The translations under genes were made by a program, and so were the position numbers. Of a DNA stretch of 64,000 bases, positions 4,148-22,305 are shown in pieces. The notes beneath the pieces were generated by a model. That model made no database searches. It was not told the origin of the DNA and worked only from the letters and a program-made list of their open reading frames with translations. This stretch comes from Pseudoalteromonas prydzensis (GTDB lineage Bacteria; Pseudomonadota; Gammaproteobacteria; Enterobacterales; Alteromonadaceae): positions 1-64,000 of the forward strand of contig NZ_DRGM01000185.1 in assembly GCF_011050055.1 (NCBI RefSeq), written 5' to 3'. Position 1 is the first letter of the stretch; each line of letters begins with the position of its first letter.

Positions 4148-4164
4148 TGCACTGTTAATGTGCT
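4148..4164 (+). promoter_or_regulatory. Putative NtrC binding site upstream of nirB
   Basis: TGCACTGTTAATGTGCT resembles the NtrC dyad TGCAC(C/T)-N5-GGTGCA with two mismatches in the right half. Its centre lies about 118 bases upstream of the predicted sigma-54 start, within the normal enhancer range. The gap 3986-4148 otherwise shows only the tRNA relic. Confidence 0.45.
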
Positions 4165-4248
4165 TGCACTGCACCATCGTTAAACATTTAATAAAATTAC
4201 CAGACTTCATAAAACACAATTACAAATAAAAACAATGAGATAAAAATA

Positions 4249-4264
4249 TGGCAATGATATTGCT
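4249..4264 (+). promoter_or_regulatory. Sigma-54 promoter of nirBD-cobA
   Basis: TGGCAATGATATTGCT matches TGGCACG-N4-TTGC(A/T), with the required GG-N10-GC spacing exact. The predicted transcript start is about 4275. This places the leader hairpins at the 5' end of the mRNA, as in the NtrC-controlled nasF operon of Klebsiella. Confidence 0.75.
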
Positions 4265-4286
4265 TAGCTAGGTATATAAAAATAAA

Positions 4287-4356
4287 ACTGCTTTTGCAGT
4301 AATGGCAACGAAGCCCGCACACACTAACCGAACGGTTTACTGTGGCGGGCTTTTTT
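4287..4356 (+). promoter_or_regulatory. nirB leader attenuator, probable NasR target
   Basis: Three elements are visible. First, a hairpin ACTGC-TTTT-GCAGT (4287-4300). Second, a short stem GGC-AACGAA-GCC (4304-4315) whose six-base loop has A at position 1 and G at position 4, as in RNA targets of ANTAR proteins. Third, an intrinsic terminator with AAGCCCGC (4311-4318) pairing to GCGGGCTT (4345-4352) and a T run to 4356. The hexaloop stem overlaps the 5' strand of the terminator, so binding there would block termination. nirB begins 41 bases further on. The first hairpin has a tetraloop rather than a hexaloop, so a full dual-hexaloop motif is not certain. Confidence 0.65.
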
Positions 4357-4396: not shown

Positions 4397-6967
4397 ATGC
4401 CACAGAAAATTCTCGTTATTGGCAATGGCATGGTGGGGCACCATTTTGTTGAACAAATGCGTGGTAGCGATGAGCATGCGCAGATCACGGTATTGTGTGG
4501 TGAAGCAAATCTTGCCTACGATCGGGTCTATTTATCAAGTGTGTTTAATGGTAAAACCGCTGCTGATCTAGCGTTAACGACTCATGAAAACTACCAAAAA
4601 CTCAATATTACTGTGCATACAAGCCAGTGGGTTGAACATATTGACGCTACGCAAAAGCAGCTCACCACTGCTGATGGCACAATCTATGACTATGATAAAT
4701 TAGTGTTAGCAACCGGCTCATACCCTTTCGTACCACCCATTAAAGGCAATGATCAATCTCACTGCTTAGTGTATCGCACCCTTGAAGACTTAGAAAAAAT
4801 AAAAAAGTGTGCGGATGATAGTAAGGTAGGCGTTGTAATTGGTGGTGGTTTGCTGGGCTTAGAAGCGGCTAACGCATTAAAACAACTCGGTTTAAATACC
4901 CATGTTGTTGAGTTTGCGCCGCAGTTAATGGCGGTCCAACTTGATCAGCAAGGCGGAAAGCTACTCAGAAATAAAATCGAAAACTTAGGTGTTAGCGTGC
5001 ACACAGGTAAAGCCACCAGTGAGATAGTTGCTGGTGAGCAGTGTCGTTACCGCTTAAATTTTGCTGATGGTAGCCACTTAGAGACCGATTTAGTGTTGTT
5101 CTCAGCAGGTATTCGCCCATACGATACCCTAGGGAATAAAGCGGGGCTTACTTTAGGTGAGCGCGGTGGAATCGTGATCAATAACGCATGCCAAACGTCT
5201 AATAAAGATATTTTTGCGATTGGTGAATGTGCATTATGGGATAAAAAATTATTTGGTTTAGTCGCCCCTGGCTACAATATGGCACGGGTTGCAGCAAGTC
5301 AGTTGTCAGGTGGCGACCTTCAATTTAACGGCGCCGATATGAGCACCAAGCTTAAGTTATTAGGTGTTGAAGTAGGATCTATTGGCGATGCGCATGGCAC
5401 GACAGCCAATGCGAAGGAACTGATATATCAAGATCCAATTCGTGATTGCTATAAAAAAATCGTCCTCAACGAAAGCGGTGATAAGTTACTGGGCGCAGTG
5501 TTAGTGGGTGACACCAGCGACTATGACACGCTGCTCCAGTACATGCTCAATGATATGGCGCTGCCAGAACATCCTGAATGCCTGATTTTACCAGACAGCG
5601 CAGGCGCGCCAACGCTGTCAAGCAGTGCCCTACCCGATACAGCCACTATTTGTTCATGTCATAACGTCTGTAAAAATGACATTATCAGCGCTATCGATAA
5701 TGGCGCAAACGAACTTGGCGCAGTAAAAACTTGCACTAAAGCCAGCACCGGTTGTGGCGGCTGTACCGCATTACTTAAATCAGTGGTAGATGCTGAACTT
5801 GCCGAGCGTGGCGTTGAAGTCAATAACCATCTATGTGAACACTTTGCTTATTCTCGTCAAGAACTATTACACCTTGTTAAAGTTGAAAAAATCAAAACAT
5901 TCGCTGAGCTGCTTAGCAGTCATGGTGAAGGCCATGGTTGTGAGATATGTAAGCCGGCTGTGGGTTCAATTTTAGCTTCAACATGGAATGACTATATCCT
6001 GAGTGAGCAACATGTCAGCCTGCAAGATACCAATGACAACTACTTAGCTAATATGCAAAAAGATGGTTCATATTCCGTGGTACCGCGTATTGCCGGTGGC
6101 GAGGTGACCGCTGAGAAGCTGATTGTACTGGGTGAAGTAGCCAAAGAATTTAATCTATATTGTAAAGTGACTGGTGGCCAACGTATCGATTTATTTGGCG
6201 CACGTCTTGAGCAACTGCCTGTTATTTGGCAAAAGCTGATAGCCGCAGGGTTTGAAACCGGCCACGCTTATGGCAAATCATTACGTACCGTTAAGTCTTG
6301 TGTAGGTAGCACATGGTGTCGTTATGGCGTGCAAGACAGTGTTGCTCAAGCAATTGCTATTGAAGATCGATACAAAGGCTTGCGCTCGCCGCATAAAATA
6401 AAAATGGCCGTGTCAGGATGTACCCGTGAATGCGCTGAGGCGCAAAGTAAAGATATCGGCATCATTGCAACCGAAAGTGGTTGGAATCTTTATGTCTGTG
6501 GTAATGGTGGCATGCGTCCACGTCACGCAGACTTATTTGCAACCGATCTAGACACAACCACTTTAATCACCTATATCGACCGTATTTTAATGTTTTACGT
6601 TAATACCGCAGACAAGCTTCAGCGTACCTCGGTATGGCTTGAGAACCTCGAAGGCGGCTTAGAGTATCTACGCCAAGTCGTGATTGATGACAGCTTAGGA
6701 ATTTGTGCTGAGCTTGAGCAGCAAATGGCGCATATCACTAGCACCTATGCATGTGAATGGCAGCGCACCATTGCAGATCCAAATGCAGTTAAACGCTTCC
6801 GTCAATTTGTGAATAGCCCAGATGCAGATGAAAACATTGTGTTTGTACAAGAGCGAAAGCAAATTCGCCCCGCAACTGAAGCTGAGAAAAGTGCACTTAA
6901 ATACACGCAGCAACGCCCTATCGCAGTAACAGAAATTACACAGGAGCAAGAAGATGTCTTGGTATAA
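4397..6967 (+). CDS. nirB: Assimilatory nitrite reductase (NADH), large subunit
   Basis: 856 residues, normal for NirB. Order: FAD/NADH pyridine nucleotide-disulfide reductase domain (about 1-300, GNGMVGHHF at the start and VIGGGLLGLEAANAL near 150); a BFD-type [2Fe-2S] domain near 418-460 with CSCH and CGGC pairs; then the sulfite/nitrite reductase ferredoxin-like and siroheme-[4Fe-4S] domain, with cluster cysteines in CVGSTWC (about 634-640) and CTREC (about 674-678). It reduces nitrite to ammonium in the cytoplasm with siroheme made through the neighbouring cobA product. It overlaps nirD by 14 bases. The promoter and leader upstream point to nitrogen and nitrate control. Confidence 0.96.
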   Translation: MPQKILVIGNGMVGHHFVEQMRGSDEHAQITVLCGEANLAYDRVYLSSVFNGKTAADLALTTHENYQKLNITVHTSQWVEHIDATQKQLTTADGTIYDYDKLVLATGSYPFVPPIKGNDQSHCLVYRTLEDLEKIKKCADDSKVGVVIGGGLLGLEAANALKQLGLNTHVVEFAPQLMAVQLDQQGGKLLRNKIENLGVSVHTGKATSEIVAGEQCRYRLNFADGSHLETDLVLFSAGIRPYDTLGNKAGLTLGERGGIVINNACQTSNKDIFAIGECALWDKKLFGLVAPGYNMARVAASQLSGGDLQFNGADMSTKLKLLGVEVGSIGDAHGTTANAKELIYQDPIRDCYKKIVLNESGDKLLGAVLVGDTSDYDTLLQYMLNDMALPEHPECLILPDSAGAPTLSSSALPDTATICSCHNVCKNDIISAIDNGANELGAVKTCTKASTGCGGCTALLKSVVDAELAERGVEVNNHLCEHFAYSRQELLHLVKVEKIKTFAELLSSHGEGHGCEICKPAVGSILASTWNDYILSEQHVSLQDTNDNYLANMQKDGSYSVVPRIAGGEVTAEKLIVLGEVAKEFNLYCKVTGGQRIDLFGARLEQLPVIWQKLIAAGFETGHAYGKSLRTVKSCVGSTWCRYGVQDSVAQAIAIEDRYKGLRSPHKIKMAVSGCTRECAEAQSKDIGIIATESGWNLYVCGNGGMRPRHADLFATDLDTTTLITYIDRILMFYVNTADKLQRTSVWLENLEGGLEYLRQVVIDDSLGICAELEQQMAHITSTYACEWQRTIADPNAVKRFRQFVNSPDADENIVFVQERKQIRPATEAEKSALKYTQQRPIAVTEITQEQEDVLV

Positions 6968-7310
6968 AATTGGTACATTAAATGATCTAGTTTTACATAG
7001 TGGTATCTGCGCACAAGTTAATAATCAACAAGTTGCCGTGTTTTATATTCCTAATGATAAGCAGTCTGTATTTGCTATCAGTAACTTTGACCCAATCGGC
7101 AAAGCCAATGTGTTAGCCAGAGGCATTGTTGGCTCACTACAAACGCGCTTAGTCGTTGCTTCACCCTTGTATAAACAGCATTTTTGCCTGACAACCGGTC
7201 AATGCTTAGAAGCAGAAACAATTCGGGTACCTGTCTATAAAACCAAAATAGAACACGATCAGGTTTTTATTAGTAGCCAGCCTGTGTTAACGGCCAGTGC
7301 AATCAGCTAA
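6954..7310 (+). CDS. nirD: Nitrite reductase (NADH), small subunit
   Basis: 118 residues, starting inside the end of nirB, so translational coupling is likely. It has the Rieske-like fold pattern of NirD (SWYKIGTLNDL at the start, then VFAISNFDPIGKANVLARG). It lacks the paired Cys-X-His and Cys-X2-His motifs that bind a Rieske cluster, as is known for the enterobacterial NirD, so it is a structural partner rather than an iron-sulfur carrier. Confidence 0.93.
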   Translation: MSWYKIGTLNDLVLHSGICAQVNNQQVAVFYIPNDKQSVFAISNFDPIGKANVLARGIVGSLQTRLVVASPLYKQHFCLTTGQCLEAETIRVPVYKTKIEHDQVFISSQPVLTASAIS

Positions 7311-7324: not shown

Positions 7325-8188
7325 ATGAGCGTATTTTCATACTTTTCAAGCATCGAGAATAACTGGCTTGATAACATTTTTACTCGATACAGTAGCGGCC
7401 AGAATAGCAGAAATAACACCGGGCAAGTGTATTTGATCGGCGCAGGCCCAGGCGACCCTGAACTTATTACCGTCAAAGCACAACGTATATTAAATAGCGC
7501 AGATGTGGTTTTATATGATTGGCTGGTGGCCGATGAACTCATTACCTCACTACCAGCCAGCTGTAAGCGCGTATTTGTCGGTAAGCGCGCTGGTAAACAC
7601 TCAATGACGCAGCCGCAAATTTGCCAACAACTCGTTAAGTTTGCTCAACAAGGTTTAACCGTTGTGCGTTTAAAAGGCGGCGATCCGAGCATTTTTGCAC
7701 GTATTTGTGAAGAAGCTGAGGCACTACAGCAAGCCGCCATAAAGTTCGCCATTATTCCCGGTGTAACAACCGCATGCGCCACGTCTGCGTATACGGGGAT
7801 CCCGTTAACCAAACGTCACGTAGCGGCAAGCATCACCTTTATGACGGCTCAATTTAGCGACCCTAAAAAACAACCTGACTGGCAAAAATACCGCTATATG
7901 CCTAATGGTGATAATTCCACACTGGTGGTTTATATGGGATTAAATAGATTAGAGCAATTGGTGTCGGGGCTGATTTCGGTTGGTTGGCCAAAAAACACGC
8001 CTATCGCGCTGATTGAGCAAGCAACCACCTTAGAGCAGCGCGTTAATACATCAACCTTGGATAAAGCATACAAAATCCCCTCATCTGAGGCGATCCATGG
8101 TCCTACACTGATTATTATCGGTGAGGTTATCAATCACACGATGCCAATTAGCCCCGAGTTATTAAATGTCACAGCCTATGGCGTTTAA
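7325..8188 (+). CDS. cobA: Uroporphyrinogen-III C-methyltransferase
   Basis: 287 residues. The tetrapyrrole methylase signature starts near residue 37 (VYLIGAGPGDPELITVKA), with VRLKGGDPSIFAR and the PGVTTACATSAYTGIPLT block further on. It uses S-adenosylmethionine to make precorrin-2, the first step from uroporphyrinogen III to siroheme, which NirB needs. It is a single-domain enzyme without the CysG oxidase/chelatase half, so those steps must be encoded elsewhere. The first 36 residues precede the conserved fold and are not recognisable. Third gene of the nir operon, 14 bases after nirD. Confidence 0.93.
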   Translation: MSVFSYFSSIENNWLDNIFTRYSSGQNSRNNTGQVYLIGAGPGDPELITVKAQRILNSADVVLYDWLVADELITSLPASCKRVFVGKRAGKHSMTQPQICQQLVKFAQQGLTVVRLKGGDPSIFARICEEAEALQQAAIKFAIIPGVTTACATSAYTGIPLTKRHVAASITFMTAQFSDPKKQPDWQKYRYMPNGDNSTLVVYMGLNRLEQLVSGLISVGWPKNTPIALIEQATTLEQRVNTSTLDKAYKIPSSEAIHGPTLIIIGEVINHTMPISPELLNVTAYGV

Positions 8189-8418: not shown

Positions 8419-8434
8419 TGGAATGAAGGTTGCA
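8419..8434 (+). promoter_or_regulatory. Sigma-54 promoter of the nasR-like gene
   Basis: TGGAATGAAGGTTGCA keeps GG-N10-GC and the TTGCA element. The predicted start is about 8445, which leaves a 27-base leader before the ATG at 8472. A half NtrC site (TGCACC at 8288) lies about 150 bases upstream of that start. Confidence 0.6.
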
Positions 8435-8471: not shown

Positions 8472-9743
8472 ATGGCTCACAATAATTCGCTCACTAAAAA
8501 ATTTCTATTAGCTGCTAAATACGAAGAGATCCATGCGTTAGAACAATTACAAAAAAGTTGTTACAACCTGATTAAACTCGGCCAATTTGTGCATCAACTA
8601 CAAAAAGAACGAGCGATGAGTAATATTTACCTCGCCTCAAACAGAACGCTTTTTGAACAGCAACTGCAACAACAAATAAAGCACTCTAATGTATTACAAC
8701 AAGCCTTGTTTGAGTCACTTGCGCAAACCTATTTATGTACCAAACCAGGGGTTGGTAATAGCCGTTTATATAATTTAATAACTATCAGCCTACAATCCCT
8801 CGATACACTTTATTCATTACGTGAAAAAGTAGCCAAACAAGCACTCAGTGCGAGTCAAGCTACACAGTCTTTTACGCAAATAATTACCAGCTTATTAAAT
8901 GTGTTTTTAGAAACCGCGGATGGTGCCAGTGATCCTGTGATCACCCGACTATTAGTTGCTTATTTTAACTTTATGCAAGGCAAAGAGTACGCAGGACAAG
9001 AGCGTGCATATGGTGCAATGGCTTTTGCCAGTAATAAGTTTGATACTGAACAAAAAGCATTGTTAAGCCATTTTCAACACAACCAACAAACCAGTTTTGA
9101 ATTTTTTAGCCAATATGCAGATGAGCAACTCACAGCAAGCTACAAGCTACTGTTACAGGATGAGTCAAACCAAGAAATAGACAAGTTACGCACTATGCTG
9201 CAGCAATTAGCGCCAAACAATAACCAAGAAGTGTCGCAGCTCAGTGAAGTTTGGTTTGACGTAGCTACCGCCCGCATCGATGTTATGCATCAAATAGAGC
9301 AACAAATTTCTAAGCGTTTAATAGCAGCAGCAAAAGAGCAGATAATTGCAGCGAAACAAAGTTTAGACACCCACCAAGGCACGCTCGCTATACTAACTAA
9401 AGACAGCCCAGACTTTAGTATAGCAACCACCGCTACGCTTTTATCTGCTGAGCTAAATGGCTATGCAAACACCAATATTGCCGCCGAAAAACTCGCTGCA
9501 AATAAAACCATGTATGATTTGATAGCCGAGCAAAGTCAGCATATAAAACAGATCAATAATGCACTGAGTGAAGCCAGAAAAGTCATCAATGAACAAAAAA
9601 TCATTAATCAGGCTAAGTTTATATTAATTGAACAGTTAAAATTAACTGAAGCCCAAGCGCATAAAAAATTACAAAAACAAGCCATGGATAACCACATCAG
9701 TTTACATAAAGTCGCAGAGCAAATTATTACGCTGGTAGATTAA
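8472..9743 (+). CDS. nasR: Nitrate-responsive antiterminator, NIT plus ANTAR domains
   Basis: 423 residues. The N-terminal two thirds is an all-helical NIT nitrate/nitrite sensor, with the hallmark LQKERAMSNIYLAS near 40-55 and a second helical half including MQGKEYAGQERAYGAMAF. The last 60 residues form an ANTAR RNA-binding domain: INQAKFILIEQL, TEAQAHKKLQKQAMD and LHKVAEQIITL. This is the architecture of Klebsiella NasR, which on nitrate binding lets RNA polymerase pass a leader terminator. Such a terminator sits in front of nirB in this window. No clear Shine-Dalgarno sequence precedes the ATG. It follows cobA in the same direction but has its own sigma-54 promoter. Confidence 0.88.
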   Translation: MAHNNSLTKKFLLAAKYEEIHALEQLQKSCYNLIKLGQFVHQLQKERAMSNIYLASNRTLFEQQLQQQIKHSNVLQQALFESLAQTYLCTKPGVGNSRLYNLITISLQSLDTLYSLREKVAKQALSASQATQSFTQIITSLLNVFLETADGASDPVITRLLVAYFNFMQGKEYAGQERAYGAMAFASNKFDTEQKALLSHFQHNQQTSFEFFSQYADEQLTASYKLLLQDESNQEIDKLRTMLQQLAPNNNQEVSQLSEVWFDVATARIDVMHQIEQQISKRLIAAAKEQIIAAKQSLDTHQGTLAILTKDSPDFSIATTATLLSAELNGYANTNIAAEKLAANKTMYDLIAEQSQHIKQINNALSEARKVINEQKIINQAKFILIEQLKLTEAQAHKKLQKQAMDNHISLHKVAEQIITLVD

Positions 9744-11189: not shown

Positions 11190-11651
11190 TCAATCCGCTG
11201 CCCATTTTTGTTGTGCCTGTACATCAGACGCTTTAAATTCAACCCACTGCGATGATTGGCTAAAATGTTCTTTTTTCCAAAACGTGGCTTGGGTTTTTAA
11301 ATAATCCATAATAAATTGCGCACCATCAAAGGCACTTTGCCGGTGTTTGCTACTCACGCCCACAAATACAATTTGCTCGCCAAGGGGGAGATAACCAATT
11401 CGATGATAAATGCTAATTCTGCCCAGTTGCCAACGGTTTTGAGCTTGCTCGGCAATGCTTAAAAGTAGTTGCTCGGTCATTTGTGGGTAATGCTCAAGCT
11501 CAAGTGCCACCACGTTGTCGCCACGACTAAATTCTCTTACTAAGCCTGTAAAAGTAACCACTGCGCCTTGCTGGACGTTACCGATTTGCAGTGCATGATG
11601 CAGCACTGCAATATCAAAATCATCATGGCTGATGATAATTTCAATACTCAT
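11190..11651 (-). CDS. moaE: Molybdopterin synthase catalytic subunit
   Basis: 153 residues with the MoaE pattern: GAVVTFTGLVREFSRGDNV, then LELEHYPQM, ISIYHRIGYLPLGE, VFVGVSSKHRQSAFDGAQ, the terminal active-site KTQATFWKKE. It joins with thiocarboxylated MoaD to insert two sulfurs into cyclic pyranopterin monophosphate. Its start codon overlaps the moaD stop. Last gene of the nas-moa transcription unit. Confidence 0.96.
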   Translation of the reverse strand: MSIEIIISHDDFDIAVLHHALQIGNVQQGAVVTFTGLVREFSRGDNVVALELEHYPQMTEQLLLSIAEQAQNRWQLGRISIYHRIGYLPLGEQIVFVGVSSKHRQSAFDGAQFIMDYLKTQATFWKKEHFSQSSQWVEFKASDVQAQQKWAAD

Positions 11652-11923
11652 TAGCCCCCCGTCACAGGTGGGAAAAAGGCCACTTCATCCCCCCCTTTTA
11701 CAATAGCTTGCTGTTGCGCTATTTGCTGATTAACTGCCGCTATCAGTAAGTCATTATTAAGCGCTGCTTGCCAACTTGGCTGTAAGCTGACTAAGTGTGC
11801 TTTTAACTGTTCAATTGAAAGCGGTTGCTTAATAGCTATAGTATAGCTTGCACATTGTAAGCGCTCTTTAAGTTGACCAAAAAACAATAGCCTAACTTGC
11901 TCAGCGTCGTTGCCAGTCGCCAT
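11651..11923 (-). CDS. moaD: Molybdopterin synthase sulfur carrier subunit
   Basis: 90 residues of ubiquitin-like beta-grasp character ([13 protein letters not shown] at the start, [11 protein letters not shown] at the end). The C-terminal Gly-Gly is the site of adenylation and thiocarboxylation. It overlaps moaC by 23 bases and moaE by one base, consistent with translational coupling. The MoeB-type activating enzyme is not in this window. Confidence 0.95.
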
Positions 11924-12371
11924 GTTGACCTCCTGATTTTTTTATCACCCGAATAGAATGAATTTCCATATCAGGATCAGCGGCTTTGCACATATCAAAT
12001 AATGTCAGTGCGGCTACTGATACTGCGGTGAGTGCTTCCATTTCAACCCCAGTTTTGCCTGCGAGTTTACATAAACTGGTTATTTTTATAGTGCAGTTTT
12101 GCTGATCTAGTTCAAAATCAACCGCCACTTTGGTCAGCGCCAGCGGGTGACACAGCGGTATGAGATCCGCGCATTTCTTTGCCGCTTGAATACCAGCAAT
12201 ACGCGCAACCCCGATCACATCGCCTTTTTTATTCTCATTGGCAACAACCTCTGAAAATGCCAGTTTAGACATCGATATCATCCCTTGTGCCATCGCTTCA
12301 CGGGCAGTGATTTGTTTTAGTGAAACATCAACCATATTCGCTTGGCCGTGTTCATCAATATGACTTAACAT
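11901..12371 (-). CDS. moaC: Cyclic pyranopterin monophosphate synthase
   Basis: 156 residues, standard length. It shows the MoaC signatures [24 protein letters not shown] and [20 protein letters not shown]. The usual KAVDPDM reads KAADPDM. It converts the 3',8-cyclo-GTP made by MoaA into the pyranopterin. Two bases separate it from moaB upstream, and its end overlaps moaD. Confidence 0.96.
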
Positions 12372-12373
12372 GC

Positions 12374-12907
12374 TTACCCCCGAGCTTTACAGCGACTGCC
12401 AATGCTAATATGTGGCACAAAATTACAGGGCTTAAACGTTGCGCTTAATTGCTGCTCAATAATGCCCGTCCACGCTGTTTTGCACGCTCCTGTGGAACCT
12501 GGCATACAAAATATAACGGTGTTATTTGCAAGCCCCGCAAGCGCCCGAGATTGAATCGTCGAGCTGCCAATTTCGCTGTATGAAATATGCCTAAATAGCT
12601 CGCCAAAGCCGTCTACGGTTTTATCAAATAACGGCAGCATTGCCTCCGGCGTTGAGTCTCGCTCAGTAAAACCTGTGCCACCAGTCACTAAAATGGCTTG
12701 AATAGTTTCATCTGCAATCCATTGTGAGGCAATTGCCCGCATTTGATATACATCATCTTTAACGATTTTTTTATCAAGCAATTGATGCCCTGCATCTTGT
12801 AGCGCCTGCACTAAATAATGCCCTGAACTATCGGTATTTTCATTGCGCGTATCACTGACGGTTAGAACCGCGATGTTAACCACGCTGTTATCTGTTGTAC
12901 TAGTCAT
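12374..12907 (-). CDS. moaB: Molybdenum cofactor biosynthesis protein B
   Basis: 177 residues of the MoaB/Mog fold: [36 protein letters not shown] and [15 protein letters not shown]. Members bind molybdopterin; MogA-type proteins adenylate it before molybdenum insertion by MoeA. No separate mogA is visible, so this may fill that role (inference). It overlaps mobA by 8 bases. Confidence 0.94.
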
Positions 12908-13508
12908 GATTTATTACTTCTTTTTTAAATTGATTGATACCGTGCGCTTTACATAATTGGCTGTATTGCACTGGGGTATTAATATTACTAAATGCGTCGG
13001 TTTGTGAGCTGGCAAGCGACTCACCGTGGCATGTTTTTATAAACTGTTTAATAGAGCAATTACTATCAATTGCGCTGAGCGTGGCGCGTAAATAATGCTG
13101 TGTCACTTGGTTATTGTTAATATAAATGGGCAATGGAAACTGGCTAAAATGCGCTAAATTCATGCTTTTATTGTGTATTTTCTGCTGCTCATAAAAATTC
13201 AGTAAACGCGTTAATAACGCGCGATTAAGTAATGGCATATCAATCGCCACGACCAACAAGTCGTTAGCTGTGTGTTTAAGGGCGCTATAAATTCCCCCAA
13301 GCGGCCCCCTATTTGGATATATATCAGGCAGATAATCGGCATTTGCATGACATCCGTTACGACTAATTAATACATCACTGAGCCCCACACTGTGCAATAA
13401 ATCAACACTGCGTTGTTGCAAGGTTTTATCGCCAAACAGCAGCTCGGCCTTATTGGTTTTCATACGTGAAGATTTACCACCAGCGAGCACTAACCCAGTC
13501 ACAGCCAT
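12900..13508 (-). CDS. mobA: Molybdenum cofactor guanylyltransferase
   Basis: 202 residues. It has a nucleotidyltransferase start, VTGLVLAGGKSSRMKTNKAE. In the usual LAGG-x-S-x-RMG-x-DKA motif the Gly is replaced here by Lys and the Asp by Asn. Downstream are PNRGPLGGIYSAL and a VVAIDMPLL metal-binding motif. MobA attaches GMP to Mo-molybdopterin to form the bis-MGD cofactor used by NasA. The altered motif suggests either drift or a slightly different GTP pocket. Four bases separate it from moaA. Confidence 0.92.
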   Translation of the reverse strand: MAVTGLVLAGGKSSRMKTNKAELLFGDKTLQQRSVDLLHSVGLSDVLISRNGCHANADYLPDIYPNRGPLGGIYSALKHTANDLLVVAIDMPLLNRALLTRLLNFYEQQKIHNKSMNLAHFSQFPLPIYINNNQVTQHYLRATLSAIDSNCSIKQFIKTCHGESLASSQTDAFSNINTPVQYSQLCKAHGINQFKKEVINHD

Positions 13509-13512
13509 TGTT

Positions 13513-14496
13513 CTACCCTCCTAACATCGCTAAATGCTTGGTTGCGCCAGTTAAGCGCTTATCAAGCTCGTGACTAATGGTTTTGTTACTCATTGCGCTG
13601 CGGATCAGTTTAATCGTTTGCTCAGCGGCGTGTTCAGTGGTGCCACTATTTAATGCACTGCGTAAGTCGATACCTTGATCAGCAAATAAACACAAATGTA
13701 ATTTACCCAGTGCCGAGACACGTAAACGATTACAGCTTTGGCAAAAGTCTTTGCTGTAAGGCATGATCAAGCCAATACGACCTTGATAATCGGGATGCCA
13801 AAACTCTTGCGCAGGGCCATTTAACTTGCCCTTTACGACTTGTAACCAGCCCGCTGCTAGCAAACTATCTTTAACGCCTTGACCGCTTAAATGGTTTTGT
13901 TCAAAAAATTGCGTGCCATTACCGGTTTCCATCAATTCAATAAAGCGCACTGTTACTCTCTGGTGCTTTATCCAAGCAAGGTAATCTTTTAGCTGATTAT
14001 GATTAAATGCTTTCGCCAATACGGCGTTGACTTTAATGCGCTTAATGCCAATCTGCTGAGCTCGTGCAATGCCGTTTAAAATATGTTGTAGCTTGTCGTG
14101 GCCAGTTATTAGTTTAAACATTTTCGGATCTAAGCTATCGATACTGACATTAATGGCATCAAGCCCTGCCGCTTTATATTCATCAACATTGTTTAATAAG
14201 TTAAACCCATTGGTTGTCAGCGCCACTTCGCTAATTCCGCTGGTGGCTTTACAACGTTTGATGATCTCAGGCAAATCTTTACGTAGGCATGGCTCGCCGC
14301 CCGTTAAGCGAATTTTTTTAGTGCCTAGCTTGGCAAAAGCACTCACTACAGTGGTAATTTCTGCTTGTGTTAAGAACTCACGCGGCGTATCACATTGGTA
14401 GCCATTCGGTAGGCAATAGCTACAACTAAAATTACAGACATCGGTGATCGAGAGTCTTAAATAATTAAAGCGACGTCCAAATTTATCTTCAAGCAT
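13513..14496 (-). CDS. moaA: GTP 3',8-cyclase (radical SAM)
   Basis: 327 residues. The N-terminal radical-SAM cluster is CNFSCSYC (CX3CX2C). The C-terminal second [4Fe-4S] cluster uses CQSC plus the Cys in KLHLC. The protein ends in Gly-Gly, the conserved MoaA tail needed for catalysis. LTGGEPCLRKDLPEI and LTTNGFNL are the standard internal motifs. First step of molybdenum cofactor synthesis. It lies 48 bases after nasA, probably in the same transcript. Confidence 0.96.
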   Translation of the reverse strand: MLEDKFGRRFNYLRLSITDVCNFSCSYCLPNGYQCDTPREFLTQAEITTVVSAFAKLGTKKIRLTGGEPCLRKDLPEIIKRCKATSGISEVALTTNGFNLLNNVDEYKAAGLDAINVSIDSLDPKMFKLITGHDKLQHILNGIARAQQIGIKRIKVNAVLAKAFNHNQLKDYLAWIKHQRVTVRFIELMETGNGTQFFEQNHLSGQGVKDSLLAAGWLQVVKGKLNGPAQEFWHPDYQGRIGLIMPYSKDFCQSCNRLRVSALGKLHLCLFADQGIDLRSALNSGTTEHAAEQTIKLIRSAMSNKTISHELDKRLTGATKHLAMLGG

Positions 14497-14544
14497 AAAC
14501 TGTCCTACTTATTATTTTTATATACATTAGCTGTGGCATAGCAA

Positions 14545-17241
14545 TTACACCGTGATCAGCACATCAATTTGCTGCCCTTTATTAGTCACTGCATGGCGTT
14601 TAATAAGCTGACTTAACTCAGTTTTACATGAGCCACAATTAGTCCCGCACTGCAACTGCAAGCCCAGTTCATCAACCCGATGAGCTCCGGCTTTAATCGC
14701 CTCGACAATTGGTTTTTCTCTAACTTTAAAGCAGCTACAAATTTGTCGCCCTTGGCTAAACTCTTCGTCAGGTGTGGCCGTTAATAATGACTGCAGTTGT
14801 GCATAGTTCAGTGCCGATTGGCTAAACAAGTGATTGATCCACTCAATTGACGTGGTTACTTGCACATCAGTTATCATCGCCACAAACACTAATCGACCAT
14901 TGGCAATACATTGAATACGTTGCGTAGCGCCTTGATAAAAACCTGACCACTGCCCTTTGATGCCACTGCTTTGTTGGCACCAGTAAAGTGCATCTGGCAC
15001 AACGTCGTTAAAAGCGAGCTGATATTGGCTGCAATTGCTGGCATTGATTTTTAGCCAATAGTCACTTTGCACCGTTATGTCAGTCTGGCAGTTGCTTTGC
15101 TTATTAACGAATACATCCATATATTGGCTAAACTCTACCGGTTGCAGCTTTATGGCCGTAAACTTCGTTTCTGGTTGACCTGAAATAGGATCAGCAATGG
15201 ACGAATATAATTTGCCAACATTAGCTGATGATGCAAATTGCTGATTCCAATGGATCGGCATAAAGCACTCACCCGCTCTTTGCGAATCGGTAATTTTGGC
15301 ATTCGCTATCACTTCGCCCACCTTCGACTGCGCTCGCACTAGGTCATCATTGTTGATGCCAAGCCGACTCGCATCTTGTGAATGAAGCTCAATATAAGGG
15401 CGGGTAATATGCGTTGAAAGCGTGGCTGATTTGCCCGTGCGCGTCATAGTGTGCCATTGATCGCGGATCCGCCCAGAGTTCATCACTAACGGATATTCAG
15501 TTGAGGTAACTTGCTTGGGTAGTTGTGGCGTAATGGCAATAAAACGCGCTTTTTTATTCATTGTGCTGAATTGATTTTGGCTGAACACTTGCCCATGCTG
15601 GTAGTTATCGCCTTTAATACACGGCCATTGGATAGGCCTCAAGGCATTATATTCGCGACTGCTCATGCCCGCTAAAGCAGATAAATTAAGCTGCCGTGAC
15701 CCGTTATTTTCAAAGCTCGTTAAACGTGCCCACTCATCAAAAATTTCACTTGGCTGGGTAAAATCAAAACCACTAAAGCCCATGTTTTTAGCTACTTCAC
15801 AGAGTATTTGCCAATCGTTTTTTGCGCCAGCGAACGGCGCGACAATTGCTCTTTGGCGAGAAATACGGCGCTCTGAATTGGTCACTGTGCCTTCTTTTTC
15901 TCCCCAACCAGTGCTGGGTAGTTTGACATGGGCATAATCAAGGGTGTCGTTACTTGCCACGCAATCCGATACCACCACCAGTTCACAGGCTTTCAGTGCT
16001 TCTGCTATCGCATTGGTATTTGGTAGGCTAACCATCGGGTTGGTCGCCATGATCCACACCGCTTTGATTTTGCCAGCGCGGATCGCAGCAAACATATCCA
16101 GCGCTTTCGCGCCTGCTTGCGTGGCGATCGTTGGTGATTGCCAAAAGCGCTTTACTAACGATTGATGCTGCTCGTTCTCAATGTCCAAGTGCGCAGCGAG
16201 TTGATTTGCCAGCCCGCCTACTTCACGTCCGCCCATGGCATTGGGTTGACCAGTAATAGAAAACGGCCCAGAGCCTATTTTTAATAACTTCCCTGACGCT
16301 AAATGGGCATTAATAATCGCATTACATTTATCAACCCCTGACGATGATTGATTAATGCCCATTGAGTAAAAGCTAATTGCTGAGGCGCTATTGGCAAACT
16401 CGCTATAAAATTGGCTAACTTCGTGGCAACTTAGTTCACAATAGCTGGCTACCTCATCTATCGTCCACGATTGCGTTGCTGCTAATGCGGCTGCAAAATC
16501 ATCGGTGTGCTTTGCAATAAAATCATCATCAAGCTGTTGGTTATCCGCTAAGTAACGTAATAAACCGTTATACAGTGCGGCATCTGTGCCTGGCTTTATT
16601 TGTAAAAACGTATCGGCCAGCTCTGCGCTATCGGTGCGTCTTGGATCGATAACCACCACTTTCATGGTCGGGTTTATACGCTTAGCTCGGGCGATACGCT
16701 GGTATAGCACTGGGTGCGTCCACGCCGCATTAGAGCCGATTAAAATAAGCAGTTCGGTGTGCTCTAAGTCTTCATAATCACAAGGCACTACATCTTCACC
16801 AAAAGCGCGTTTATAACCCGCCACCGCAGAAGACATACACAAGCGTGAATTAGTATCAATATTGGCCGAACCAATATAACCTTTCATGAATTTATTGGCG
16901 ATGTAATAATCTTCGGTTAACAACTGCCCAGAGACATAAAAAGCCACCGCATCCGGGCCGTGCTCGGCAATTATTTTGCTGAATTCACTCGCCACATAAT
17001 TACTCGCCACAGACCAGCTTACTTGTTTATTGTTAATTTCTGGTGCGCTAAGGCGATTATCATTGCTGATAGTATCTAATAAATGGCTGCCTTTTACGCA
17101 TAACCGTCCGTAGTTTGCAGGATGTTCAGGCATCCCTTCTAGCTGTGTCGGTTGCTTGCCCGCTAAGGCAACGTCCACGCCGCAGCCCACACCACAATAC
17201 GCACATGTTGTTTGAATTAAACTCTCTTTTAAAGGGGTCAT
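14545..17241 (-). CDS. nasA: Assimilatory nitrate reductase, catalytic subunit
   Basis: 898 residues. It starts with a molybdopterin oxidoreductase [4Fe-4S] domain: Cys in CAYCGVGC and GRLCVKG. SRLCMSSAVAGYKRAFGED is the conserved active-site region, and the molybdopterin-dinucleotide-binding domain includes MNSGRIRDQWHTMTRTGKS. A C-terminal BFD-like [2Fe-2S] domain (CSCF...CGTNCGSC, about 845-890) is the port for electrons from NasC. No Tat signal is present, so it is cytoplasmic and assimilatory. It starts 9 bases after nasC. Confidence 0.94.
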   Translation of the reverse strand: MTPLKESLIQTTCAYCGVGCGVDVALAGKQPTQLEGMPEHPANYGRLCVKGSHLLDTISNDNRLSAPEINNKQVSWSVASNYVASEFSKIIAEHGPDAVAFYVSGQLLTEDYYIANKFMKGYIGSANIDTNSRLCMSSAVAGYKRAFGEDVVPCDYEDLEHTELLILIGSNAAWTHPVLYQRIARAKRINPTMKVVVIDPRRTDSAELADTFLQIKPGTDAALYNGLLRYLADNQQLDDDFIAKHTDDFAAALAATQSWTIDEVASYCELSCHEVSQFYSEFANSASAISFYSMGINQSSSGVDKCNAIINAHLASGKLLKIGSGPFSITGQPNAMGGREVGGLANQLAAHLDIENEQHQSLVKRFWQSPTIATQAGAKALDMFAAIRAGKIKAVWIMATNPMVSLPNTNAIAEALKACELVVVSDCVASNDTLDYAHVKLPSTGWGEKEGTVTNSERRISRQRAIVAPFAGAKNDWQILCEVAKNMGFSGFDFTQPSEIFDEWARLTSFENNGSRQLNLSALAGMSSREYNALRPIQWPCIKGDNYQHGQVFSQNQFSTMNKKARFIAITPQLPKQVTSTEYPLVMNSGRIRDQWHTMTRTGKSATLSTHITRPYIELHSQDASRLGINNDDLVRAQSKVGEVIANAKITDSQRAGECFMPIHWNQQFASSANVGKLYSSIADPISGQPETKFTAIKLQPVEFSQYMDVFVNKQSNCQTDITVQSDYWLKINASNCSQYQLAFNDVVPDALYWCQQSSGIKGQWSGFYQGATQRIQCIANGRLVFVAMITDVQVTTSIEWINHLFSQSALNYAQLQSLLTATPDEEFSQGRQICSCFKVREKPIVEAIKAGAHRVDELGLQLQCGTNCGSCKTELSQLIKRHAVTNKGQQIDVLITV

Positions 17242-17250
17242 GGCGCTCTC

Positions 17251-18774
17251 TTATGCAAGTTCGGTTACGGGGATCAATGCGTCATCACTGAGTCGCTTAG
17301 GCTCTGCTTGAGTGATGGCTAAGCTGTGTTCGGTTAAACTGTGTTCGGTTAAGCTGTGTTCGATAATGCAATTTACTCGGCTTTCGCAACTGCCACAGCC
17401 GGTGCAGGCTTTGGTGACTGTTTGTACGCCAACTAAATCAGTAGCGCCGGCTAACACGGCTTGTTCAATCGTGTGTTTAGTTACTTGGTGACAACTGCAG
17501 ATCAGTGCATCAGCGGCTAACTCTGCGATTGAAATCGTATCTGGTGTTGGCGCAAGCGGTAAAATAAGTGATTCAGGGGCAATATTAAGGGCTAAGTCGT
17601 GCAAGTGATATTGTAGTAAGTTGTCATAATCGCTGGTATCGCCCACCAGTACTGCACCAATCACCTGAGTGCCTGCTTGATTGGTGACTATTTTTTTGTA
17701 AACACCGCTGAGTTGATCGTCAAAAACATAACTACGAGCGCCTTGCGTCCGTGCATGAGCATCACCAATGGAGCCCACTTCAACCCCCATTAGTTTTAAT
17801 TTAGTGCTCATATCAGCACCATTAAATGCATCATCAGTGTTGTTAAATAAAATATGTTTCGCTGCGATTTTAGCCATCGCGTAACCCGGTGCCACTAAAC
17901 CAAAGATAAAATTACCCCACAGCGCACATTCGCCAATAGCGTAAATATTTTGATCTGACGTTTGGCAATAGTTGTTAATAACAATGCCGCCACGCTCACC
18001 AACAGCTAAATCAAATTCTCGGGCTAAATTGTCATAGGGGCGGATCCCTGCGGAAAATAAAATCAGATCCGTTTCAAGTGTCTTACCGCCTTTAAAACAC
18101 ATTTTGTAACGACAGTGTTCGCCATCGACTATTGCTTCTGTGGCCATTGAGGTATGCACCTGCACACCTAATGCGGTAATTTTATCTTTCAGTAATCGTC
18201 CGCCGCCGCCATCGACTTGCACGCCCATTAGTTGCGGGGCAAACTCTACAACATGGGTTTCAAGGCCCAGCTGTTTAAGTGCATTCGCGGCTTCTAAACC
18301 GAGTAAACCACCACCAATCACCACCCCCACTTTACTGCTGCTGGCAGAGTGTTTGATCGCGTTTAAATCAGCAATGGTGCGATACACTAAGCAATGTTCA
18401 CGGTCTTTACCTGGAATGGGTGGTACGAAAGGAAATGAGCCGGTTGCCAATACCAGCTTGTCATAATCAAAGGTTGCACCTTCACTGGTCGTTACTTGCT
18501 GCTTTAGCCGGTTTATATCGGTGACTTTTGCATTGGTGTAAAAACGCACTTGCCAATCCGCATATATTTGCTCGTTAGTTAACGCAAGGTCGTTGGCTGT
18601 TTTGCCAGCAAAAAACGCTGACAAGTGCACTCTATCGTAAGCTAACCGCTCTTCGCCACTGAGTACAGTCACTTCGACACCCGTATTAGGGTTGATAAGA
18701 CTGGTAATTTGCTCTACGAAATGATGCCCAACCATTCCATTGCCGACGACAACGACTCGTTGTTTGCGGTTCAT
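17251..18774 (-). CDS. nasC: Nitrate reductase electron-transfer subunit (FAD/NADH, BFD-type)
   Basis: 507 residues, matching only the N-terminal half of NirB: FAD and NADH domain (GNGMVGHHFVEQI at the start, VIGGGLLGLEAANALKQLGL in the middle) and one BFD [2Fe-2S] domain near 418-460 (CSCH...CTGCGSC). It has no siroheme domain. This is the NasC design of Klebsiella, which passes electrons from NADH to NasA. Much of the sequence is close to the nirB in this window, so the two probably arose by duplication. Near the C-terminus is a 5-residue repeat, EHSLT x3. A good Shine-Dalgarno (AAGGTGA) precedes the ATG. Confidence 0.88.
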   Translation of the reverse strand: MNRKQRVVVVGNGMVGHHFVEQITSLINPNTGVEVTVLSGEERLAYDRVHLSAFFAGKTANDLALTNEQIYADWQVRFYTNAKVTDINRLKQQVTTSEGATFDYDKLVLATGSFPFVPPIPGKDREHCLVYRTIADLNAIKHSASSSKVGVVIGGGLLGLEAANALKQLGLETHVVEFAPQLMGVQVDGGGGRLLKDKITALGVQVHTSMATEAIVDGEHCRYKMCFKGGKTLETDLILFSAGIRPYDNLAREFDLAVGERGGIVINNYCQTSDQNIYAIGECALWGNFIFGLVAPGYAMAKIAAKHILFNNTDDAFNGADMSTKLKLMGVEVGSIGDAHARTQGARSYVFDDQLSGVYKKIVTNQAGTQVIGAVLVGDTSDYDNLLQYHLHDLALNIAPESLILPLAPTPDTISIAELAADALICSCHQVTKHTIEQAVLAGATDLVGVQTVTKACTGCGSCESRVNCIIEHSLTEHSLTEHSLAITQAEPKRLSDDALIPVTELA

Positions 18775-18818
18775 CAGTTCACCTTACTTGCTATGTATTT
18801 ATTGTTATTAACAATTAA

Positions 18819-18834
18819 AGCAAGGGCTATACCA
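18819..18834 (-). promoter_or_regulatory. Sigma-54 promoter of nasC-nasA-moa
   Basis: Read on the minus strand, TGGTATAGCCCTTGCT has GG-N10-GC and TTGCT. The start is predicted near 18808, giving a 34-base leader to the nasC ATG. A TGCACC half-site (18918-18923) starts a 17-base NtrC-sized window centred about 118 bases upstream of that start. The promoter would let nasC-nasA-moa be transcribed separately from narK and the kinase. Confidence 0.6.
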
Positions 18835-18939
18835 AACATTTAAATATAATATATACAACAACTTAACTTTTAAAAAAATATTGAAAGTTAGGTACAGCAC
18901 CACTAGGATCCATTACTTGCACCACAGTGATACTGCTAG

Positions 18940-20712
18940 TTATTTAATGATCAGCACCGTGAGTAAGCAAAGGAACAAACAAATCGCGATCACTTGCCAT
19001 ACCATCACTGGGTTACGCTGATAAAAAGAGGGTTTGTCTATTACCGTCATACTCAGCTGTGAGTTAGGGGTATTGAGGTCGTTAATAAACTCTGAAAATG
19101 AACTATAGCGATGCTCAGGCTTTACCGCCGTGGCTTTCATTAACGTTTGATCGAACCAAAAGGGGATATCACTACGGTAGTCACGAATGCTGCGATAATG
19201 CCAAAAAGTGCTACCTGAAGGTGTTTGTGAAGTAGAAGATAACGATTTATACGGTAACTGCCCAGATAATAGTTCGTAGATAATCACAGCAAGTGAAAAT
19301 AAGTCACTTTTAAAATCGGCGTTTAAAGTGAGTAGTGTTTCAGGGGCTGTGTAACCGAGTGTGCCTTGCGGGCATTCATCCACTATTTGATTAATATCAT
19401 CATGCATGGCGGCAATTTTTACGGTGCCATAATCAATCAAAGTTACGTTACCGTGCGCATCAATCATCACGTTATCTGGCTTTAAATCACGATGAACCAT
19501 ATCGAGGCGCTGAAAAGCGCGCAAAGCTTGCACGATTTGCAAGGCAATATTTCGCACTTGGCTCAGTTGTGGCTCGGGTGTGTCTGCTTGCCATTGTCTT
19601 AGAGTTTGGCCATCCATGTATTCACAAATATGATATAAAAAAACACTGTCGTCGGCAGTGCTAAGCACTTTCATAACATTGGGATGGTTAATACGCTGGC
19701 CAACCCACCCTTCACGCATAAACCCTTGCAAGTAATGGAGGTCTTCTGCAAAGTTTATAGAGGGCGTTTTTAATACTACCGGTGCGGCATACTCGTTACT
19801 TTGCACTAAGTAAATATGTGAACGAGTGCTGGCGTATATTTGCCGCAGTACTTTGTACTGATCAAGCTGCTGACCAACCTGTAATACCGCTGGAATTTTA
19901 CGTTTCGTAAGATCGCGGTATCGTTCATCTAAACATTTTTTGGGGATCTGCTGCACTTTCACCAGTAAACAACTCACGTTGTCGTCACTGCCTTGTGCAA
20001 TCGCACGCTGTGTGATTGCTTTAGCCGCAGCTTCTAGATCATGGTTATTATTAATACACTCTATAAATTGTGTTTGAGTAACAAAGTCGTGCACGCCATC
20101 ACAGCTCAATACATAAATATCATGCTGTTTTAGCTCAAACTGATAAACATCAACCTCTTGATGTAACTCTGCCCCTAATGCTTTGGTTAAATGCTGATTA
20201 ACTTTATGATCCCGGGTTAATTGAGTCAGTTCACCATCGCGTAATTGCGCAACACGCGTGTCACCTAAATGAAAAATATAGCCACTGGTTGATTTTAATA
20301 TCAGTGCACTAAAAGTAGTCATCCAATGGGCTTGACGGTGCATTTGTTGGCTATTGGTCGGCGTTTGCGAATAAAGCCACAAGTTTAAACTGGCCAGCAC
20401 TTTAGAGACTGATTTTTTTACCGACCAACTAGGCTCGGTAGCTAAATATTCATTAATAAAGTGACTGACCGCTAAATTAGCCGCTTCTTTGGCAAATTTA
20501 GCGCTTGAACAACCATCCGCAATACACGCAACAATCCCTTTGTAATCACGCTCATGTCCTTTGGTATGCAGGGCTGCAAAAGCGTCTTGATTATCGGCTT
20601 TATTGCCTGGCGCTGAATGCCCGCCAAATGACACCTGTAGCTCATTTATAGCATGCTCATTAACAATGCGTTTATTAACTTGGCTGCTCGCTTTGGCGGT
20701 TTCAGCTATCAT
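18940..20712 (-). CDS. Fused PP2C phosphatase / Ser-Thr protein kinase, membrane-anchored
   Basis: 590 residues. Residues about 25-255 are a PP2C phosphatase: SAPGNKADNQDAFA, CIADGCSSAKFA, LGDTRVAQLRDG, SCDGVHDFV and SDDNVSCLL supply the metal-binding aspartates. About 285-545 are a Hanks kinase: catalytic HRDLKPDNVMID near 404, DYG in place of DFG (IDYGTVKI), GTLGYTAPE, and Lys in VVLKT near 310. The glycine-rich loop is poor in glycine (YASTRSHIY). A single membrane helix at 568-588 follows, so both enzymes face the cytoplasm. A similar kinase gene stands beside nitrate transporter genes in Pseudomonas, from memory. It lies 10 bases after narK. Targets unknown; regulation of transport or reductase is inference. 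Confidence 0.88.
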   Translation of the reverse strand: MIAETAKASSQVNKRIVNEHAINELQVSFGGHSAPGNKADNQDAFAALHTKGHERDYKGIVACIADGCSSAKFAKEAANLAVSHFINEYLATEPSWSVKKSVSKVLASLNLWLYSQTPTNSQQMHRQAHWMTTFSALILKSTSGYIFHLGDTRVAQLRDGELTQLTRDHKVNQHLTKALGAELHQEVDVYQFELKQHDIYVLSCDGVHDFVTQTQFIECINNNHDLEAAAKAITQRAIAQGSDDNVSCLLVKVQQIPKKCLDERYRDLTKRKIPAVLQVGQQLDQYKVLRQIYASTRSHIYLVQSNEYAAPVVLKTPSINFAEDLHYLQGFMREGWVGQRINHPNVMKVLSTADDSVFLYHICEYMDGQTLRQWQADTPEPQLSQVRNIALQIVQALRAFQRLDMVHRDLKPDNVMIDAHGNVTLIDYGTVKIAAMHDDINQIVDECPQGTLGYTAPETLLTLNADFKSDLFSLAVIIYELLSGQLPYKSLSSTSQTPSGSTFWHYRSIRDYRSDIPFWFDQTLMKATAVKPEHRYSSFSEFINDLNTPNSQLSMTVIDKPSFYQRNPVMVWQVIAICLFLCLLTVLIIK

Positions 20713-20722
20713 CTTATTTGCC

Positions 20723-22192
20723 TTAAGTAACAGAAATTAATTCAACCGAACCGTCTTCATTCACTTCTGTGATATGGCCTTTTGGTTCTTGCATAAACAT
20801 TAACGCTATCAGCCCCACTAATGCACTGCCCGCAATGACAAAAAAGAACATTTGATAGTCAACCATTGATAATACCGTTAAATACACCACCGCCCCAACA
20901 TTACCATAAGCACCTGTCATACCGGCAATTTGCCCAGTTAAGCGACGCTTAATAAGTGGCACCGCCGCAAAAACAGCGCCCTCACCGGCTTGCACAAAGA
21001 ACGAGCACGCCATTGCAGCCACAACAGCTAGCCACAGCGGCCAACTCGCATCAACCAGCCCCATCACTAAATAGCCTACCGCTAAACCTATGGTTAGCAC
21101 AATTAAGGTTATTCTGCGTCCGAGTTTATCGGAGATCCAACCACCACCTGGGCGCGATGCAAGGTTCATAAAAGCATAAGCAGAAGCGAGTAATCCGGCA
21201 TAAACCATATCAAGGGCAAAAACCTCACTAAAAAATAGTGGCAACATAGAAATAACCGCCAGCTCTGAGCCAAACGTTGTAAAATATAAAATATTCAGCA
21301 CAGCAACTTGCTTAAACTCATAGCGCTGTGACTCTGGTACTGGGTGTTTAAAAATGGCTTTATTGATATCGTAGGTTTTATATACTTCATACACATAAAG
21401 TGCAATTAGTAGTACATAAACGCCTGTTACAAAGTTAGCAGAAATAAGATTGGCACCACTGGGCGAAAGTTTCCAACTAAGTAATGCCATAGCCGCATAC
21501 ATAGGAATTTTCATGATCAGCAGTAATACAAAATCGCCTTTACTGGTTACTTCCATTGCGCCTATTTTTTTCGGTTTAAAATAGGTTGCTCCCTTTGGGG
21601 TATCGGTCACATTAAAAAACCAAATAAGGCCAAATAGGATGCTAATTACCCCCGTAACAGCAATCGCATAACGCCAGCCATCTTCACCGCCAAATAGCAG
21701 CGCAATCGCAGGCAGTGACATCGCGGCTGCGGCTGAACCAAAGTTACCCCAACCACCGTAAATACCTTCGGCGATACCAAGCTCATTAGCAGGAAACCAC
21801 TCACTGACCATACGAATGCCGACCACAAAGCCTGCACCAATAAACCCCAGCGCAAAACGTGCAATTGCAGCTTGTTCAAAGGTTGTGGCTGCGGCAAACA
21901 TAAAACACGGAATACTACAGGTAATAAGTAAAGCAGAATAAACAATACGCGGGCCATATTTATCGGTGAGCATACCCACCACCACCCGTGCCGGTATCGT
22001 TAATGCGACATTCAAAATCAGTAAGGTTTTAACTTCAGCCATACTGATCCCCAGTGATACGGCTATTGCACCTAGCATAGGTGCATGATTAAACCAGACA
22101 AAAAATGACACGAAAAAAACCATCCAACTAAGATGAAGCACTTTCATCTTGCCCCGAAATGATAATAAATTGAATCCTGTAGTTTGCTGCAT
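20723..22192 (-). CDS. narK: Nitrate/nitrite transporter, MFS, NarK/NasA type
   Basis: 489 residues, about twelve membrane helices. Family motifs include the nitrate signature regions [23 protein letters not shown] (seen in two overlapping pieces) near 125-150 and [16 protein letters not shown] near 400, and the MFS loop TDKYGPRIV. The assimilatory setting points to nitrate import. It is the first gene of the nas cluster on the minus strand, with CAGGAG as ribosome-binding site, and a sigma-54 promoter lies about 100 bases upstream. Confidence 0.93.
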
Positions 22193-22289: not shown

Positions 22290-22305
22290 AGCAAATTATA
22301 AGCCA
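22290..22305 (-). promoter_or_regulatory. Sigma-54 promoter of narK
   Basis: Minus-strand TGGCTTATAATTTGCT keeps GG-N10-GC and TTGCT. The start is predicted near 22280, followed by an 88-base leader rich in A/T with no terminator hairpin, so unlike nirB this operon shows no sign of NasR attenuation. Confidence 0.7.

Follow-up and report, generated by a model that had tools for sequence, protein, structure and literature searches.

The ANTAR sites described in the literature consist of two tandem hexaloops with A at position 1 and G at position 4 (PMC3369931; PMC7496416). In the Klebsiella nasF leader, as read in K. pneumoniae, the upstream loop (P1) is CC-AAUGGC-GG and the terminator-proximal one (P2) is GGAU-AAAGGC-GUCC. 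Klebsiella NasR has an affinity for P2 on its own that is about 12-fold lower than for P1P2, and it binds RNA with nitrite as well as with nitrate; its R340 is near-universal and essential, and both R340 and R366 are needed for RNA binding (PMC7496416). In Pseudomonas, the ANTAR protein NasT, partnered by the sensor NasS, governs attenuation of nirBD under a sigma-54 promoter (PMC12830290), and a 2012 study had predicted such sites upstream of genes for nitrite reductase (PMC3369931). Structural work on Enterococcus EutV from 2022 gives one hexaloop as the minimal ANTAR site and ascribes the reading of G4 to Lys149, Glu160 and Met172. It nonetheless reports that the two hexaloops of the dual motif are contacted individually and must each be contacted to prevent termination, and that the role of a single hexaloop needs study (PMC8934654). 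Literature searches whose coverage leaves out most subscription journals returned no account of NasR, NasT or ANTAR antitermination in Pseudoalteromonas or Alteromonas, the one paper retrieved being on Trichodesmium, and for “single hexaloop” together with ANTAR only the EutV work (PMC8934654).

Here we describe a nirB leader from Pseudoalteromonas prydzensis, found in a 64,000-nucleotide stretch of contig NZ_DRGM01000185.1 (the window; Table 1). Judged from sequence, its attenuator resembles NasR/nasF in action, with a NIT-ANTAR regulator, an A1/G4 hexaloop overlapping a terminator and an assimilation operon as target, yet it lacks the dual hexaloop. It also differs in that the target is nirBD-cobA and not a transporter operon such as nasF, in its loop letters (AACGAA versus AAAGGC) and in having Gln at the positions of NasR R340 and R366. 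With the Pseudomonas nirBD leader (NalA) it shares a sigma-54/NtrC promoter and a leader hairpin relieved by an ANTAR protein, both putative here (PMC12830290), but a one-component NIT-ANTAR protein stands in place of NasS and NasT. EutV at eutP likewise relies on A1/G4 hexaloops and has the same residues for reading G4, although EutV is an ethanolamine response regulator and reads two hexaloops (PMC8934654).

Table 1 Features of the nirB and narK regions of the window.
Feature	Position (strand)	Details
NtrC-like upstream sites, two	4148..4186 (+)	TGCACTGTTAATGTGCT 4148-4164; TGCACCATCGTTAAACA 4170-4186
nirB promoter, sigma-54-like -24/-12	4249..4264 (+)	TGGCAATGATATTGCT; GG-N10-GC spacing; 10/12 letters
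Upstream hairpin at the place of P1	4287..4300 (+)	ACTGC-UUUU-GCAGU; from fold and scan
P2 hexaloop hairpin, putative ANTAR site	4304..4315 (+)	GGC-[AACGAA]-GCC; A1 and G4
Intrinsic terminator	4310..4356 (+)	stem 4310-4353; U-tract 4351-4356 (six U)
nirB, NAD(P)H nitrite reductase large subunit	4397..6967 (+)	NIR_SIR, Pyr_redox_2, Fer2_BFD domains
nirD, small subunit	6954..7310 (+)	Rieske_2
cobA, uroporphyrinogen-III methyltransferase (siroheme)	7325..8188 (+)	TP_methylase domain
Sigma-54-like promoter of the NIT-ANTAR gene	8419..8434 (+)	TGGAATGAAGGTTGCA
NIT-ANTAR one-component regulator, NasR-type	8472..9743 (+)	PF08376 E 1.5e-49; PF03861 E 2.1e-16
narK, kinase/phosphatase-like, nasC-like, nasA, moaA, further moa/mob-like genes	11190..22192 (-)	ORFs; names inferred
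narK-nasCA-moa promoter, sigma-54-like	22290..22305 (-)	no terminator or hexaloop in the leader that follows

The nirB leader

Read directly, positions 4249-4397 comprise a sigma-54-like site, a transcription start that we infer to lie near 4275, an AU-rich stretch, two hairpins, a terminator and, about 40 nt after it, nirB. The segment GAAGCC is common to P2 and the 5' arm of the terminator, and the two structures are therefore mutually exclusive. The leader fold has a z score of -5.45, with none of 200 shuffles equally stable, and the terminator by itself one of -5.51. A transcript stopping short of the 3' arm of the terminator is predicted to fold into two small hairpins (-10.4 kcal/mol), with P2 alone contributing 3 bp and -3.6 kcal/mol; the other hairpin has a UUUU tetraloop and no A1/G4 hexaloop. 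Against TGCACC-N5-GGTGCA, which we take to be the NtrC-site consensus, the two sites upstream of the promoter score 9 and 8 of 12 (shuffle p 0.03 for the better one). A preliminary description of this DNA had proposed a NasR-type nitrate attenuator here, and the reading of 4249-4356 bears out its promoter-like site and its hexaloop overlapping the terminator 5' arm. A search of Rfam with the leader gave nothing above the gathering score; RybB (E 0.067) and the other sub-threshold matches were judged to be chance.

Evidence for the element from this single sequence is weak. Twelve sites within the window reach 10/12, the score of the nirB promoter; a match at this level is by itself no proof of a sigma-54 promoter. 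Scanning the window for a hexaloop on a terminator gave three matches where Markov shuffles led us to expect 0.475, which is not significant, as 14 of 40 shuffles held at least one match. It is conservation, and not the window itself, that marks the element as more than chance.

Conservation and co-occurrence with ANTAR proteins

NirB is encoded in 25 of 108 genomes of the genus, and 21 of these 25 carry GGC-AA(A/C)GA(A/G)-GCC overlapping a terminator immediately upstream of nirB, each with a sigma-54-like site (8-10/12) conserved in place. In G214 the attenuator precedes a porin gene which is then followed by nirB. The genomes G207, G251 and G260 have a more distant NirB with sigma-54-like promoters and without terminator or hexaloop; NIT-ANTAR was not found in any of these three. 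Across the genus, the loop-and-terminator pattern occurs in 23 of 108 genomes (Fisher p 5e-22 for co-occurrence with NIT-ANTAR, uncorrected for phylogeny): all 22 with a NIT-ANTAR protein, and G281, where no matching stem is visible by eye and the match looks like chance. A reversed-pattern control matched 0/108.

In a sample of 196 genomes of the family, 44 carry the pattern. An ANTAR match is present in 42 of these and in 53 of the 152 others (Fisher p 1e-13, a count that, like that for the genus, ignores shared ancestry); just two of 101 ANTAR-less genomes have the pattern, G115 and G136, the latter 88% complete. All 16 NIT-ANTAR genomes of the family have it. So do 26 of 79 with a non-NIT ANTAR protein, and the pattern is therefore not diagnostic of NIT-ANTAR.

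Alignment A2 joins 15 of the 21 genus leaders, placed through nirB homology, with nine others placed through the motif (24 rows). Its loop is near-invariant: positions 1, 2, 4 and 5 are fixed, position 3 is A or C and position 6 is A or G. The terminator stem is paired in 99.5% of cells and has eight cells changed on both sides, and 0/500 shuffles were as high in either measure. The number of pairs with a change on both sides (two) is unremarkable, being reached by 56/500 shuffles, and six further pair types are reached by 37/500. The preliminary description had named loss of the hexaloop or terminator from orthologous leaders as grounds for abandoning its proposal; both are retained, and a NasR-type reading of the nirB leader is well supported at the sequence level by the genus leaders and by co-occurrence with NIT-ANTAR.

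Some arrangements depart from that of the window. In G214 (L287, 5644) and in the annotated P. donghaensis record (L093, 15636) the attenuator precedes a porin-like gene heading porin-nirB-nirD-cobA, which in the latter record is annotated “alginate export family”; the NIT-ANTAR protein at this type of locus is just 35% identical to that of the window. L093 has a second hexaloop attenuator, at 8596, before a formate/nitrite transporter gene. The loci named here and below were drawn from the top-ranked 80 among at least 485 relatives that had been confirmed.

Most nirB leaders of the family contain one A1/G4 hexaloop

We searched for P1 in the 80 nt 5' of P2 as a C-G-closed A1/G4 hexaloop with at least 3 pairs, in 124 distinct attenuators (131 before removal of duplicates, from 125 loci, with P2 pairing demanded by the attenuator scan itself; loci without a scan match or without a reference gene within 160 nt are left out of the counts). 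Enteric and betaproteobacterial leaders served as positive controls: P1 was found in 2/2 enteric leaders, 35/35 betaproteobacterial nrtA leaders and 3/5 betaproteobacterial nirB leaders. It was found in 1/21 Pseudoalteromonas nirB leaders and 0/1 fnt leaders; in other Alteromonadaceae, in 0/21 nirB leaders (3/21 with looser closing pairs) and 2/11 fnt leaders; and in 5/28 leaders of other gammaproteobacteria. Shuffles gave an expectation of about one or fewer per group, and about two for the betaproteobacteria. The window leader itself has no P1. Thus the dual-hexaloop motif, for which the preliminary description had suggested a covariance search, gives way to the terminator-overlapping hexaloop alone, here and in nearly all of the relatives' nirB leaders scanned.

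The hairpin that precedes P2 in Pseudoalteromonas has, among others, the loops UUUU, GUUAU, AAAAAG, AGAAAC and UUAU. Six leaders keep a C-G-closed hexaloop that starts with A (ACAATA in three, ACACTA, ACTATA and ACAGTA), with G4 in one. In a k-mer search for a substitute P1 motif, words resembling ACAAT were over-represented in leaders of Alteromonadaceae other than Pseudoalteromonas, and not in the leader of the window.

Variants of this architecture occur elsewhere. Marinobacterium sediminicola (L113) has, at one locus, four hexaloop attenuators before nirB-, nrtA-, nasA- and cobA-like genes, and the scan found P1 at none of the four. The nirB leaders of Aquisalimonas (L155, L162) have an upstream 7-nt loop starting AxxG (ATTGATC, ATCGACG), possibly a heptaloop form of P1. 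An extra hairpin is predicted between P1 and P2 in the betaproteobacterial nrtA leaders L136, L165 and L169, where the spacing is 20-23 nt; in Klebsiella (L091) it is shorter, at 9 nt.

The NIT-ANTAR regulator

The genes lie in the order nirB, nirD, cobA, NIT-ANTAR, so the regulator that had been noted four genes on is the fourth when nirB is counted first; 283 nt separate it from cobA, a name borne by the homologue adjoining nirBD in the P. donghaensis record. Both of its domains, as expected of a NasR-type system, score above their cut-offs. The 425-aa frame holds the sole ANTAR match of the source genome (93.84% complete), and a short NasT-like ANTAR protein, as a NasS-NasT system would have, was not found in this assembly. 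The gene probably has its own sigma-54-like promoter, which is seen (9-11/12) in 20 of 22 genus loci, the exceptions being L078 and L090; with such a promoter the regulator could be expressed independently of nirB transcription.

The only solved relative that we found is K. oxytoca NasR (PDB code 4akk), through which residues were mapped (NasR number = chain index - 27; EutV number = NasR number - 198; this numbering is our own derivation and is consistent with the published residue names). The set that reads G4 is retained as K382 (EutV K149, K. oxytoca NasR K347), E393 (E160) and M405 (M172, NasR M370), and the equivalent of NasR K341 is kept too. The aromatic position (EutV Y164, NasR W362) is H397. 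R340 and R366 of Klebsiella NasR correspond to Q375 and Q401. Some alignment rows share one genome, and with this in mind position 340 is Q in 44, H in six and L in one of the 51 Alteromonadales rows with a letter, and R in all others counted (betaproteobacteria 40/40, enterics 2/2, other 26/26). Position 366 is Q in 49/51 Alteromonadales rows, and R in 35/40 betaproteobacterial, 2/2 enteric and 21/26 other rows. RNA recognition by the Alteromonadales NIT-ANTAR proteins may therefore be weaker or different. The arginines R47 and R178 of the NIT domain are conserved in 120/120 rows and R240 in 118; in the NasR structure these reportedly bind nitrate.

Replacement of R340 by Gln as the sole cause of P1 loss was rejected: Arg is kept in every row outside the Alteromonadales, betaproteobacteria and enterics, yet P1 was seen in just 5/28 leaders there, and genomes with short ANTAR proteins that have this Arg also have single-loop nirB leaders (e.g. 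L256, L257). On balance we lean towards the view that in Alteromonadaceae antitermination at nirB works on a single terminator-borne hexaloop, P1 having disappeared or degenerated into a hairpin without function, and that the NIT-ANTAR proteins carry Gln in place of R340 and R366 while keeping the pocket for the flipped G4.

Other ANTAR architectures in the family

A single ANTAR match was present in 94 of 95 ANTAR-bearing genomes of the family. The non-NIT ANTAR proteins (79 genomes) are mostly frames of about 200-260 aa; we call the short ones NasT-like by their size and ANTAR end only. In Alteromonadaceae with a single ANTAR match, in a frame about 200 aa long, nirB is likewise preceded by a GGC-AA(A/C)GAA-GCC leader. 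Leader stretches were taken from 20 of the 26 pattern-bearing non-NIT ANTAR genomes. P1 accompanies the GGC-type P2 in 2/13 of their nirB leaders and, under a looser closing rule, occurs in 4/6 narK, 6/8 nrtA, 2/2 nasA and 1/1 fnt leaders (“nrtA” is used for genes whose products resemble Pantoea NrtA, among which NasS may be included). Three genomes (L257, L258, L273) have a dual nrtA or narK leader together with a single-loop nirB leader; the scan is therefore sensitive in these genomes, and it is the leaders themselves that differ. Inspected by eye, 17 short ANTAR proteins have R at position 366 throughout, and at position 340 R in 13, Q in two (L268, L269), K in L271 and T in L273. The leaders suggest that two ANTAR architectures can act on one RNA gate.

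The narK-nasCA-moa operon

The preliminary description had narK-nasCA-moa without an attenuator, and this holds for 20 close orthologues of narK, each from a genome with NIT-ANTAR: neither terminator nor hexaloop was found in any of their leaders, and each has a sigma-54-like site (9-10/12). Domains were checked for the NasA and NasC-like proteins of the operon. NtrC-like palindromes with p of 0.05 or less in mononucleotide shuffles occur upstream in 19/21 nirB, 9/20 narK and 20/22 nasR cases. Of the other two NIT-ANTAR genomes, G259 gave no narK match. In G214 the narK (L200) is 72% identical and lacks a sigma-54-like site; scanning its leader turned up a single match to terminator plus hexaloop, which by eye consists wholly of G-U pairs. 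The remaining nine narK loci have a hexaloop alone in four cases and a terminator in none.

Relatives place the attenuator otherwise. Seven other Alteromonadaceae stretches have it before an nrtA-like gene (six) or before nirB (one), and in several relatives nirB, nirD and nasA follow an attenuator in one run, so that uptake or nitrate reduction would be gated too. In Pseudoalteromonas, as far as seen, the nitrite step alone appears to be gated; this would be a pathway with its attenuator at one step, unlike the six stretches where an nrtA-like transporter gene is attenuated.

Proposed mechanism and alternatives

We consider the following scheme very probable. The nirBD-cobA operon would be transcribed from the sigma-54-like promoter, with NtrC activation under nitrogen shortage being probable, and the transcript would by default stop at the terminator. 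On binding nitrate or nitrite through its NIT domain, the regulator would catch the nascent hexaloop with its ANTAR domains; the hexaloop can form earlier than the 3' arm of the terminator, and its capture would block the stem and allow read-through into nirB. Transcription of narK-nasCA-moa would begin at a separate sigma-54-like promoter and meet no gate of this kind. Counting against the scheme are the 3-bp stem of P2, the 12-fold lower affinity of Klebsiella NasR for P2 on its own (PMC7496416), the Gln residues equivalent to R340 and R366, and the occurrence of the pattern with non-NIT ANTAR proteins, in counts that are not phylogenetically independent. As for the inducer, restriction to nitrate, as in the preliminary description, is too narrow: nitrite may act too, given the RNA binding of Klebsiella NasR with either ion (PMC7496416), and the simplest role would then be that nirBD is made only with its substrate or precursor at hand in a nitrogen-starved cell. 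The earlier interpretation is in this sense partly supported.

The scheme has to be weighed against the possibility that the leader is a canonical dual-hexaloop attenuator in disguise, its upstream hairpin acting as P1. In the window just 3 nt separate that hairpin from P2, and the six Pseudoalteromonas leaders with an A-starting, C-G-closed hexaloop speak for such a role; yet only one of these has G4, the base that is stacked by an aromatic residue in EutV (PMC8934654). Moreover, in the window P2 is only about 29 nt away from the inferred start, 14 of these being taken up by the UUUU hairpin, loop sizes and letters differ among relatives, and L045 and L046 have no hairpin near P2, all of which makes a disguised P1 unlikely. 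We give far less credence to a terminator that is constitutive, or under another factor, with the hexaloop merely its A-rich flank. The A-tract and GCCC...GGGCTTTTTT are indeed usual terminator anatomy and the scan within the window was not significant, but the pattern tracks ANTAR presence closely, the loop letters stay near-invariant while the stem changes, and the three nirB genomes in which NIT-ANTAR was not found are also without the element.

A tentative alternative, which we rate well above these two, concerns history and signalling: the cis element may have been built for a NasT-like protein, with NIT-ANTAR as a later sensor swap that left the action the same. It draws on the like nirB leaders of those Alteromonadaceae in which a short frame gives the only ANTAR match, and on Pseudomonas NasT working on a sigma-54-driven nirBD leader (PMC12830290).

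If the single-hexaloop reading preferred here is true, it contradicts the published need to contact each hexaloop of a dual motif (PMC8934654). The leaders described are candidate natural single hexaloops with a terminator, in L257, L258 and L273 beside dual-loop leaders, and they make the single-hexaloop question directly testable.

Other RNA genes in the window

Three tRNA-Val (GAC) genes lie at 3127, 3452 and 3652, shortly 5' of the nirB promoter (window 3127-4060). Between and after them sit degenerate tandem copies of tRNA-Val 3' halves, in arrays at 3172-3429 (period 106) and 3497-3988 (period 90). At 42283-42377 the window holds SdsR/RyeB, a small RNA associated with enterics, with 42.9 bits, above the Rfam gathering score.
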